Below, one piece after another: positions 1,119 to 32,462 of a stretch of DNA of 34,141 bases (positions are counted from its first letter, which is position 1; each line of letters opens with the position of its first letter). Source of the stretch: a virus; IMG/VR virus record IMGVR_UViG_3300047557_000956, positions 1 through 34,141 of that record. One strand, 5' to 3'. The notes under the pieces are model-generated. The model had not been told where the DNA came from. It ran no database searches and worked only from the letters and a program-made list of their open reading frames with translations. Position numbers and translations under genes: made by a program.

Positions 1119-1124
1119 AGTTTA
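1119..1124 (-). promoter_or_regulatory. candidate -10 (TAAACT) for the methyltransferase gene
   Basis: On the minus strand the sequence reads GGTAAACTG, five bases, then ATGG. The TAAACT is six bases from the start codon, so transcription would begin at or next to the ATG. The same arrangement occurs before the small terminase gene at 3678. No clear -35 is visible: the upstream DNA is an oligo-T then oligo-C run. Confidence 0.3.
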
Positions 1125-1152
1125 CCCCGGCTAAAAAAAGTTGGGGGGGGGG

Positions 1153-3654: not shown

Positions 3655-3671
3655 GTGAACAACGGTAAACT
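3655..3671 (+). promoter_or_regulatory. operator-like dyad and candidate -10 before the terminase genes
   Basis: GTGAAC-AACG-GTAAAC (3655-3670) matches the GTnnAC-N4-GTnnAC pattern also found at 31183 and 31879. The right arm overlaps TAAACT (3666-3671), which is six bases before the ATG at 3678. No convincing -35 and no Shine-Dalgarno are visible. It may be a regulated start point of late transcription. Confidence 0.4.
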
Positions 3672-3677
3672 GCCGAC

Positions 3678-3977
3678 ATGGTTAACACAGGTTCTTTTAA
3701 AAAAGGCAAGAAAGGTGGCCCCGGCAGACCGAAGGGTGTGCCTAACGAGTCAACGCAACTGGCGAGAGAGGCCATAGCGCGATTCGTAGACGGCAACGCA
3801 GGTCGATTGCAGGGTTGGCTGGACGAGATACACGCCGAGAAGGGCGCAGAGGCGGCGTTTAAGTGCTTCAGCGACCTGCTCGAATACCATGTGCCGAAAC
3901 TCGCCAGACACGAACACAGCGGGCCAGACGGCAAAGAGCAGCAGATGGTCATACGGTGGGGCAATCCGGTTGGCTGA
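3678..3977 (+). CDS. terS: terminase small subunit
   Basis: The 99-residue protein starts with a basic, Gly/Lys-rich arm containing GGPGRPKGVPNESTQLAREA, the signature of a common family of small phage terminase subunits. A helical DNA-recognition and oligomerisation region follows (residues 30-65), then the EYHVPKLARHEHSGPDG tail. It would bind the packaging site and hand DNA to the large terminase encoded directly downstream, which overlaps its end. No Shine-Dalgarno precedes the ATG; the start codon is immediately downstream of GGTAAACTG, so a leaderless or coupled start is possible. Confidence 0.8.
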   Translation: MVNTGSFKKGKKGGPGRPKGVPNESTQLAREAIARFVDGNAGRLQGWLDEIHAEKGAEAAFKCFSDLLEYHVPKLARHEHSGPDGKEQQMVIRWGNPVG

Positions 3978-26954: not shown

Positions 26955-27252
26955 GACGAACGCAGACCTTGCTAGGGCGTACCTTGCGGCGAGGGGCTGC
27001 GTTGAGACGCTGAACCTTCAACTGCGGGCGATACGCGAGTTGGATGGCGGGGGTGGACTCGAACCACCGTTAACGGAGTCAAAGTCCGTTGTCCTGCCGC
27101 TAGACGACCCGCCAGTTTCACCAAGTATCGGGCCATCCCCGGTGGCAAGCCCAATTGGGCGGGGGGACGCGGCTCCATTCGTAGTGCCTGCGTGCCTTCA
27201 GGTTGCGGAACCAGTCGATGACCCATCTGACCATAGTGCCTCCACGCTGTAG
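26824..27252 (+). CDS. Rz1: outer-membrane spanin lipoprotein (Rz1-like), extended C-terminus
   Basis: The gene lies in the +1 frame, beginning inside Rz and running past its end. It has a lipoprotein signal: basic start, hydrophobic LSIGLLCAF, lipobox LTAC with the lipid-bearing Cys21. Pro-rich segments (PQALTEPCLPPQTPLE) are typical of Rz1. The first ~73 residues look normal. After about residue 73 the frame runs through the antisense strand of a tRNA-Gln (27041-27114), giving a non-homologous tail to residue 142. The C-terminal part is thus probably an accident of an insertion, or the gene is functionally truncated. Confidence 0.65.
   Translation: MSSRLTPSLSIGLLCAFLTACATPSVRIPQALTEPCLPPQTPLETNADLARAYLAARGCVETLNLQLRAIRELDGGGGLEPPLTESKSVVLPLDDPPVSPSIGPSPVASPIGRGDAAPFVVPACLQVAEPVDDPSDHSASTL
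27041..27114 (-). tRNA. tRNA-Gln, anticodon UUG, CCA encoded
   Basis: On the minus strand the sequence begins TGGCGGG and its partner CCCGCCA gives a perfect seven-base acceptor stem. The D arm reads GTCTAGCGGCAGGAC. The anticodon stem ACGGA/TCCGT encloses CTTTGAC with TTG as anticodon. A four-base variable region and a T arm GGTGG-TTCGAGT-CCACC follow, then discriminator T and an encoded CCA. All arms are intact, so it is likely functional; the discriminator T instead of the G common in glutamine tRNAs is odd. It lies 83 bases downstream of the leftward operon and antisense to the Rz1 tail. Confidence 0.9.
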
Positions 27253-28060: not shown

Positions 28061-28457
28061 ACGACGGCTCCGGTATCACGATGCCCATCTCCAAGCACTT
28101 CGTTTCCAAGAACAACAGGTAATCGCTGAACTCTTGCTTGTTGAGCGTCGAGGAACGGCGCAGCGGTCGCAGCCGCTTCCTGCCGAAGCCCTCCAGCGTC
28201 TCCCATCCGAAACACTCGCCCAAGAAGTAGTCGTGCAGGTCATCGCGTGTCCACCCGCGCAGAGCCTCACCACCGCCCTCAAGGATGGACGGGTACACCA
28301 CGCCCCACAGAAACTTGTTCTGTTGGTTGGTACGGGGCTTCTTCCATTCCGTGACCTCGACCGCCCATGTCTTAAGCGGGTCGAGGCCAGACACCATCCG
28401 CGCGACGACAGATGCCATCGCGTCGGGTCTAGTGCCTCTCGGAAAGATGCGCTTCAT
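28047..28457 (-). CDS. ninB: NinB-like recombination protein
   Basis: ATG 28457 is chosen because it overlaps the glycosyltransferase stop (ATGA); the frame extends further upstream within that gene. The 136-residue product has the NinB pattern: EVTEWKKPRTNQQNKFLWGV, then WTRDDLHDYFLGECFGWETL and a C-terminal helix with EFSDYLLFLETKCLEMGI. NinB/Orf proteins bind single-stranded DNA and help recombinases in lambda-type phages. It sits with ERF and an SSB-like gene, a coherent recombination module. The length agrees with NinB. Confidence 0.8.
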   Translation of the reverse strand: MKRIFPRGTRPDAMASVVARMVSGLDPLKTWAVEVTEWKKPRTNQQNKFLWGVVYPSILEGGGEALRGWTRDDLHDYFLGECFGWETLEGFGRKRLRPLRRSSTLNKQEFSDYLLFLETKCLEMGIVIPEPSYEPA

Positions 28458-30768: not shown

Positions 30769-31143
30769 TCAAACGGCTTCGCTGTCTGCGCTCGTCAAGG
30801 TTTCCGCATACCATGCGGTCGCGTTCTTTACGAAGTCTGCCTTGCCGTACTGACGAATCTCGGGCTTGACGCAGTACCGCACGGCGTTCTCGACGGTGTT
30901 GTTAAGCGGCGAAATGCGGCTACGGCGCAAGTCCGACATACGCTCGTTAACCTTGTCAGCGAAATGCCGACCGTGGCGGCTGTCAAGCCACACGGCGATT
31001 GCCTCGGGGTTGCAGCGCGTGGCGTTGTAGAACTCGCTGATGGCAACAGCCCACGCCCGACGCTTGTTGGTGCGGATGGTTCCGTAGAACCCGAACTTGG
31101 CGTTCTGCGTGGCGGGGAGGGAAATCGTGATGGTCGCGGTCAT
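30769..31143 (-). CDS. hypothetical protein, 124 aa, first gene of leftward operon
   Basis: ATG 31143 follows leader box copy 3 with AGGAG. The product has a beta N-terminus (TATITISLPATQNAKFGFYG), then a helix NKRRAWAVAISEFYNATR, AIAVWLDSRHGRHFADKVNE and a basic C-terminal segment before SADSEAV. No family is recognised. As the first gene behind the early promoter it is likely an early regulator or host-interaction protein. The same leader occurs before the 1227 and 1625 genes. Confidence 0.6.
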   Translation of the reverse strand: MTATITISLPATQNAKFGFYGTIRTNKRRAWAVAISEFYNATRCNPEAIAVWLDSRHGRHFADKVNERMSDLRRSRISPLNNTVENAVRYCVKPEIRQYGKADFVKNATAWYAETLTSADSEAV

Positions 31144-31164
31144 GTCGTTGCTCCTATCTGTGAA
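31141..31164 (-). promoter_or_regulatory. repeated leader/RBS box, copy 3
   Basis: On the minus strand: TTCACAGATAGGAGCAACGAC then ATG at 31143, close to copy 1 apart from two pyrimidine changes. Provides AGGAG for the first leftward gene. Confidence 0.65.
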
Positions 31165-31180
31165 GTGATTCGACGGGGAC

Positions 31181-31208
31181 AGGTTAACACAAGTTTACCC
31201 CCTGTCAA
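31181..31208 (-). promoter_or_regulatory. leftward early promoter
   Basis: On the minus strand TTGACA, 16 bases, TAACCT. The -35 is a perfect consensus. The GTTAAC and GTTTAC arms of the 31183 dyad overlap the -10 and spacer, so a repressor there would block it. Transcription would begin near 31174 and read the recombination operon. Confidence 0.65.
31183..31198. promoter_or_regulatory. operator-like dyad in divergent control region
   Basis: GTTAAC-ACAA-GTTTAC. It has the spacing of the dyads at 3655 and 31879 and lies across the leftward promoter. A further GTTAAC at 31237 overlaps the -10 of the opposite promoter. The likely ligand is the Cro-like protein encoded at 31252, by position. Confidence 0.5.
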
Positions 31209-31216
31209 CACCCCCC

Positions 31217-31244
31217 TTGAAATATTTTTCACCCTCGTTAACCT
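31217..31244 (+). promoter_or_regulatory. rightward promoter of the Cro-like gene
   Basis: TTGAAA (31217-31222), 16 bases, TAACCT (31239-31244). The start point would fall at about 31251-31252, i.e. at the ATG, so the message is probably leaderless. The -35 is back to back with that of the leftward promoter, eight bases apart. Confidence 0.6.
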
Positions 31245-31251
31245 CCCCTGT

Positions 31252-31473
31252 ATGGACATCCAGACAGCCCTTGCCGTCACAGGCTCCAAAGCCGCCCTCG
31301 CCCGTAAACTGGGAGTCAGCCGCCCTGCCGTTAGCAGGTGGTGCAAATCAGGGCGATTGCCGCCGATGCGCGTATGGCAATGGAAGGCTCTGGAAGCCGC
31401 CGCTGCGCCCTTTTCAGCGGCCCTTGAGCCGACCCCCCTGCCTACCCCTGCCCCGCACCACGAACCGCTATAA
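31252..31473 (+). CDS. Cro/YdaS-like repressor
   Basis: The 73-residue protein starts at ATG 31252 with no Shine-Dalgarno, immediately after a TAACCT -10. Residues 12-32 (SKAALARKLGVSRPAVSRWC) form a clear helix-turn-helix like Cro and YdaS proteins, followed by LPPMRVWQWKALEAA and a Pro-rich tail. It would bind operators between the divergent promoters and repress or balance them, as Cro or a CI-like protein does. There is no separate cleavage or oligomerisation domain, so the protein is the small regulator type. The long open frame upstream to 30748 lies over leftward genes and is not real. Confidence 0.85.
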   Translation: MDIQTALAVTGSKAALARKLGVSRPAVSRWCKSGRLPPMRVWQWKALEAAAAPFSAALEPTPLPTPAPHHEPL

Positions 31474-31479: not shown

Positions 31480-31503
31480 TCCGCAGACCCCTAAAACGAC
31501 AAA

Positions 31504-31522
31504 CCCCCGCACTTGGCGGGGG
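31504..31522. terminator. GC-rich hairpin, possible terminator
   Basis: CCCCCGC-ACTTG-GCGGGGG, seven base pairs. Read on the minus strand it is followed by TTTGTCGTTTT, so it works best as a terminator of leftward transcription coming from the right, and weakly for rightward. Confidence 0.5.
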
Positions 31523-31523
31523 C

Positions 31524-31553
31524 TTGACGGGCCGGGGGAAGTGGCCTTACGCT
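31524..31553 (+). promoter_or_regulatory. possible rightward promoter
   Basis: TTGACG (31524-31529), 18 bases, TACGCT (31548-31553). The TTACGCTTG block recurs in the next promoter at 31897. It would transcribe the structured region. Confidence 0.25.
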
Positions 31554-31874
31554 TGAGATGCTGTTCTCGCGTGATGGTCAATTTACACGGCTGTTCTAGC
31601 CCTGTCAAACACCCCACCACGCGACCCCTTGACACGGGCATCTGTCACCGGCGGGGTGGGTGCAACTCCCACATGATGTTCAATCATCGACCAGACACCG
31701 GACACCACGGTCTGGCGGGTCTACCAACCGCGTCCATACGGGCATAGGTTGGACCCTCTTGGCTCCCAATGTTCTTGGGGGTTAGGGGGGTCCTTTCCCG
31801 GTCCTCCGAGCATGGGTCTTAAGAGTTTATCTTCGACAAAGAATCCTAGAATCTAGAAGCCTAAACTAAAATTG

Positions 31875-31903
31875 TTGCGTTAACCGCCGTAAACAGTTAC
31901 GCT
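31875..31903 (+). promoter_or_regulatory. possible promoter of the right-hand operon, with operator dyad
   Basis: TTGCGT (31875-31880), 17 bases, TACGCT (31898-31903). GTTAAC-CGCC-GTAAAC (31879-31894) lies in the spacer, with the same spacing as the two other dyads. The next gene starts at 31932. Confidence 0.4.
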
Positions 31904-31931: not shown

Positions 31932-32462
31932 ATGAACGAACTCGACCAGCAAGCATGGGAACGCTGGGTCGCCTACCGCAAGGCGATTCGCAAGCCCATC
32001 AAACCTGCCTCCGAACACGCGATGAAACTCAAACTCGCGCGCTTCGGTGCTGACCAAGACGCGGTAGTAGAGCAGTCCATCGCCAACCAGTATCAGGGGC
32101 TGTTTCCGCTGAAGGACAAGCCGAAGCCCGACCGCCCGCAGAAGTCGCCCGAGCAGAAGGCTGCGGATGATGCGCTTTTCCTTCAGGCGCAGGAGCGTGC
32201 GGCAAGGGCATGGGACAAACTGGAGCCCTCCCCGCTGAACCGCTTGAAGTTGTGCGATGCGCTGTGGGCGCGCTACACCTGCATGGAGGATGGCGAGGAG
32301 GCGCGCGAGAAGTTCGAGTGGCTGCGCGGTGTCGTGGGGATGCACCTGCGCGAGGCTGAGCCGACCGAGGTGCTGAACGACCCGCATCTTCGGACGATGG
32401 TGTTTTGCATGTTTGGCCCGCGCGGCATTTCGCGCTTGAAGGAAAGAGAGGTGAAGCCATGA
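31932..32462 (+). CDS. replication-associated-like protein, 176 aa
   Basis: AAGAGG lies ten bases before ATG 31932. The N-terminus DQQAWERWVAYRKAIRKPIK, followed by PASEHAMKLKLARFG and VVEQSIANQYQGLFPLKDKP, matches a domain usually found at the C-terminal end of phage replication initiators or helicase loaders. The rest is helical and charged, with EAREKFEWLRGVVGMHLRE. Here it stands alone, without the initiator's winged-helix domain. It probably binds DNA or a replication partner; this is inferred from domain resemblance. It overlaps the next gene (ATGA). Confidence 0.5.
   Translation: MNELDQQAWERWVAYRKAIRKPIKPASEHAMKLKLARFGADQDAVVEQSIANQYQGLFPLKDKPKPDRPQKSPEQKAADDALFLQAQERAARAWDKLEPSPLNRLKLCDALWARYTCMEDGEEAREKFEWLRGVVGMHLREAEPTEVLNDPHLRTMVFCMFGPRGISRLKEREVKP

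Follow-up and report, generated by a model that had tools for sequence, protein, structure and literature searches.

The window analysed here is a 34,141-base virus record from IMG/VR. Its rightward genes encode terminase, portal, head, tail and lysis functions, and its leftward operon comprises phrog_8020, ERF annealing protein, SSB, NinB and HNH genes. Beyond the leftward operon lies an HTH gene, which a non-coding stretch separates from an O-like replication gene (31932–32462, plus strand; phrog_678, E 1.2e-15) that has a normal SD (−7.0). The first gene of the leftward operon (30769–31143, minus strand) is the phrog_8020 gene, to which no function is assigned. The earlier note had given the leftward operon a strong RBS box, and indeed AGGAG (31155–31151) precedes the ATG of this gene at 31143; an SD is kept in the leftward genes of the relatives. 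The window is nearly complete because one relative, G001, has overlapping ends that define a complete unit of ~34.3 kb and another, G002, carries a 127-base repeat at its ends. A tRNA-Gln (ttg) gene lies between the lysis genes and the leftward operon (27041–27114, minus strand) and has a GTTAAC inside it. Only the C-terminal third of the protein encoded at 2592–3626 matches phrog_2579 ("ParB C-terminal domain"), and the name is probably misleading.

The HTH gene (31252–31473, plus strand) encodes a 73-residue protein. Its description as Cro-like held up: the protein matches Pfam YdaS (PF15943) with 34.8 bits, above the cut-off, and phrog_35 (transcriptional repressor), and its AlphaFold model (pLDDT 76) lies nearest to N15, Xfaso1 and P22 Cro in Foldseek. 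The top matches were all Cro, with E-values of only 0.016–0.14, and phmmer agreed weakly. It is thus a small HTH protein with Cro-like sequence and fold. We found no close relative of it among cultured phages.

Two promoters lie back to back in front of this gene. The leftward promoter PL (31208–31181, minus strand) consists of TTGACA (31208–31203), a 16-nt spacer and TAACCT (31186–31181); the rightward promoter PR (31217–31244, plus strand) consists of TTGAAA (31217–31222), a 16-nt spacer and TAACCT (31239–31244), and its predicted start is 31251–31252. The −35 boxes are 8 bp apart, and the PR −10 is separated from the ATG at 31252 by 7 nt (CCCCTGT) with no SD. All the letters and distances that had been claimed for this pair were present on direct reading. 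A sigma-70 consensus scan of the window listed neither PL nor PR, and in a single sequence the promoter pair is not above chance; it is significant because it is conserved among relatives.

We compared 75 related loci, which yielded 34 upstream sequences including that of the window; one of them (L078), a distant outlier, was left out, leaving 33 haplotypes. The PR layout was kept in 33/33, as TTGnnn-16-TAAC(C/T)T with a constant 16-nt spacer and variable intervening letters. The gap between the −10 and the ATG was 7 nt in 19 haplotypes, 8 nt in 12 and 6 nt in two, with 14 different gap sequences. None of the 33 had an SD before the repressor ATG, and the anti-SD duplex at ATG 31252 was −0.3 kcal/mol, whereas the window's other plausible starts ranged from −3.1 to −10.7; positions 28406 and 27768, which were also listed, have no start codon. 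The TTGACA of PL was kept in at least 30/33 haplotypes, and its −10 shifts position in some. Because the haplotypes are related and mosaic rather than independent, we claim no p-value. The repressor frame is open upstream; however, ATG 31252 is very probably the correct start, since it is the last start codon preceding the HTH domain and residues 1–4 (MDIQ) are invariant among close relatives.

A wider set of loci was collected by a DNA pattern for the RNA that lies downstream (see below). Most have a Cro-like ORF upstream of this RNA (131 ORF matches in 148 loci, some of them cut). Among 79 distinct starts from 11 protein clusters, 65 have TANNNT 5–9 nt before the ATG and three more have TTAAAT 6 nt from it, a leaderless-type total of ~68. 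The other 11 starts, which belong to five small clusters, are preceded by a canonical SD, and the SD-bearing clusters lack that −10; this tally was made by inspection, as the automatic SD label also catches an upstream GGCGG in the operator. At loci with the type I RNA, 33/39 distinct starts have TANNNT and no SD. Only 13 of 141 ordinary starts, called mechanically, have TANNNT at that distance, and several of the 13 are other candidates (terminase, methyltransferase). The two marks of a leaderless gene, absence of an SD and a conserved −10 about 6–8 nt before the ATG, are therefore both present, in agreement with the leaderless-type start that the earlier note had proposed. Judging from these comparisons, the Cro-like repressor mRNA of this group, whose members are uncultured phages of ~34 kb, very probably begins at the start codon.

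The candidate operator of the repressor consists of two GTTAAC-like boxes 10 bp apart. One copy lies at PL (GTTAACACAAGTTTAC, 31183–31198), where an extra box, GTCAAC (31204–31209), overlaps the −35. A second overlaps the −10 of PR (TTTCACCCTCGTTAAC, 31227–31242) and reads TTTYAC-N4-GTTAAC in 33/33 haplotypes, with conserved boxes separated by four variable bases. A third (GTTAACCGCCGTAAAC, 31879–31894) lies between the boxes of PO, the promoter of the replication gene (31875–31903, plus strand; TTGCGT 31875–31880, 17 nt, TACGCT 31898–31903). Period 10 is the commonest among box-pair periods, and pairs with this period were observed three times with at most one mismatch (Markov mean 0.05) and seven times with at most two (Markov mean 0.43). 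The pairs are located at PL, PR, PO and the terminase promoter; of the rest, two are within coding sequences and another is at the junction of two genes (2575). In some relatives the PL pair moves relative to the −10 and is thus not simply a promoter element. The corresponding PL, PR and PO promoters of five relatives contain these sites too, and protein clusters with other recognition helices have, by eye, other palindromes at the same place. These sequences are likely the repressor's binding sites in several phage promoters.

The fourth promoter belongs to a probable small terminase gene (3678–3977, plus strand), which lies directly before the large terminase gene, has a weak SD (−3.1) and is a second gene with a leaderless-type start. 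Its operator, GTGAACAACGGTAAAC, and the overlapping −10, TAAACT (3666–3671), span 3655–3671 (plus strand), and the −10 ends 6 nt before the ATG at 3678. The −35 is poor in the window (GTCAAA); by eye, most relatives have TTGnnn at 18 nt. The pattern GTRAAC-N4-GTAAACTG-N4-CATG was found in 52 stretches representing 25 haplotypes, four of them seemingly unrelated. In 12 cases the ATG opens a 98–99-residue terminase-like protein without an SD, and in nine it opens a 12-codon ORF that overlaps the apparent terminase start. This 12-codon ORF, found after the operator in relatives including L096 and L103 (window 3655–3680), is a possible leaderless upstream ORF. A methyltransferase-like gene was considered as a third leaderless gene: at 1119–1135 (minus strand), TAAACT lies 6 nt before its ATG at 1112, together with operator-like GTTTACCCCGGCTAAA. 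The start is of the leaderless type in only ~4/15 haplotypes, and we keep it as a weak candidate.

Taken together, these observations make it probable that the segment serves as the early control region in a phage of ~34 kb, in which a leaderless Cro-type repressor acts through operators shared by several promoters; this degree of confidence applies to the explanation as a whole. The Cro-type gene would be transcribed rightward from PR into an mRNA that starts at or within one base of the AUG, because the PR −10 ends 7 nt before the ATG, and that, given the conserved spacing, would be translated without an SD. Comparative footprinting suggests that a dimer of the 73-residue protein binds the 16-bp site formed by two GTTAAC-like boxes. 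The sites overlap PR, PL, PO and the small terminase promoter, so that the protein could repress its own gene, the recombination operon, the O-like gene and the terminase gene, and its rising level would damp or time early and packaging transcription. The next transcription unit would be a structured RNA upstream of the replication gene, linked to the switch by its position only.

The locus had been interpreted in the earlier note as an immunity-type switch, a reading that our results did not support. A lambda-type immunity switch has a CI-type gene opposite cro, and an integrase. Here the gene opposite the cro-like gene is phrog_8020, followed by the ERF, SSB and NinB recombination genes and not by a second repressor. 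We found no tyrosine integrase (PF00589) in 16 records, no serine recombinase (PF00239) in 8 records and no S24 (CI-type) repressor (PF00717) in 8 records, absences that are meaningful in the relative whose overlapping ends show it to be complete and in the one with end repeats. The phage may still lead a temperate or plasmid-like life based on the repressor alone, in which the protein would be the immunity repressor of a plasmid-maintained or Xer-integrated phage that needs neither integrase nor CI. That sites lie at four promoters, the terminase promoter among them, points more to global shut-off than to cro-like fine control. However, no convincing partition gene was found, a bacterial genome collection contained no relative of the repressor and only 40–46% relatives of the terminase, and both the fold and the gene order (before an O-like gene) are cro-like. 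We therefore regard an immunity repressor as unlikely, though still the most credible of the alternatives.

Could transcription of the repressor gene instead begin farther upstream, at an unseen start, and give the mRNA a short leader of the normal kind? The PR −10 is inside the operator, so the conservation of TAAC could stem from the operator alone, and TAACCT would then be only an operator half; at PL and PO, GTTAAC stands as an operator box by itself. Moreover, TAACCT matches only 3/6 bases of the sigma-70 consensus, which the host's own sigma factor may not follow. Counter to this, conservation extends to the −35 TTG at 16 nt and to the distance from the ATG, and clusters with different operators still hold a −10 at 6–8 nt from the ATG. 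The uniform absence of an SD among the haplotypes, and its appearance in just those clusters that lack this −10, also argue against a leader, which we consider improbable. That PL and PR are separate promoters without shared regulation, their boxes chance AT-rich sequence, would fit their absence from the consensus scan and is very improbable, given that the box pairs are far above Markov expectation and recur at homologous promoters.

The favoured arrangement, a leaderless Cro-type repressor with shared operators, is already known in kind. Lambda, which has an integrase and CI, produces a leaderless cI message from PRM, and its cro message has a leader. The window resembles lambda in having a leaderless-type repressor message and a small HTH repressor before an O-like gene, and differs in that the leaderless gene is the cro-like one, as in PY54. 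In PY54, which like N15 is a telomere phage, the cro and cI mRNAs start at the AUG by 5′ RACE and a 16-bp palindrome is bound by Cro (PMC4488713). Among solved folds, that of N15 Cro is nearest to the 73-residue protein. PY54 is unlike the window in that it is temperate, has cI, and its Cro binds one site, which is not at its own promoter, whereas the window has candidate sites at four promoters and no CI that we could find. In CP-933P, YdaS is a Cro analogue and not a toxin, and PaaR2, the CI analogue, was reported to be leaderless (PMC8630535). The PaaR2/YdaS-YdaT locus likewise has divergent promoters in a short intergenic region; however, the leaderless gene there is PaaR2 and not YdaS, and the window has no CI analogue opposite. 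Because leaderlessness of PY54 cro and of PaaR2 is published, the core is a variation on known systems. What sets the window apart from the published cases is how its candidate operators are spread, that no CI partner was found, that the terminase start is also of the leaderless type, and that the RNA is present; it goes beyond them in that the leaderless arrangement is conserved in many relatives, beside an RNA that is not in Rfam.

Leaderless phage repressors are known from few cases. In the natural series formed by the related phages, the same gene at the same locus is leaderless in some and SD-led in others, which opens the reason for leaderlessness to testing; in addition, operator sequence can be matched to changes in the recognition helix. 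The adjoining RNA is supported by covariation, has no Rfam family and occurs in more than 100 phage contigs.

This covarying structured RNA, which exists in two interchangeable forms and is absent from Rfam 15, is the most novel part of the locus. In the window, a terminator-like hairpin (31500–31526, minus strand) lies between the repressor gene and the RNA region (31555–31813), which is preceded by a promoter-like element (31524–31553, plus strand; TTGACG 31524–31529, 18 nt, TACGCT 31548–31553) that is kept in relatives with TACGCT, TATCCT or TAACCT as its −10. Between their HTH gene and their O-like gene, the relatives have an RNA of either type I or type II. Type I, to which the window's RNA belongs (31618–31813, plus strand), was aligned from 23 sequences including the window's, after chance matches of its loose pattern (L310, L319 and L332) had been left out; 94% of cells were paired (slid controls, 41–58%) and 16 pairs were changed on both sides. 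Type II, aligned from 55 sequences, had 98.3% of cells paired (slid controls, 27–41%), with changes on both sides in 24 pairs and 295 cells. Both structures were derived from the scored alignments themselves, which favours them, and the margins are large. Helix 5 of type II (88–92 with 138–142) is a pseudoknot, 100% paired with three compensating pairs. Type II occurs in at least ~120 IMG/VR stretches, for example L010:3370–3591 and L156:9721–9942.

Rfam 15 gave no family at gathering on the window, and at E≤1 nine loci gave only two sub-threshold snoTBR5 matches. Neither type matched a cultured phage, and a literature search, which is weak evidence, found nothing specific on such an RNA. The next SD-bearing ORF after the RNA belongs to the O-like family in 66/90 distinct cases, and our guess is that the RNA serves the replication operon in cis, as a leader or antitermination RNA. 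We give an even chance to a broader proposal, in which the leaderless cro-like gene belongs to the same regulatory cassette as the RNA next to it, an undescribed RNA of two architectures, one pseudoknotted, whose target would be either the replication operon (in cis) or the switch (in trans).

The promoter-like TTGACG elements at 31524–31553 and 1154–1182 contain a short inverted repeat between the −35 and the −10; its two arms flank a G-rich loop and show covariation from relative to relative (GGCC/GGCC, GGGC/GCCC, GGCA/TGCC). The best sigma-70 match of the region, TTGACA-17-TAAATT (31608–31580, minus strand), points toward the hairpin at 31526–31500 and may produce a short antisense RNA.
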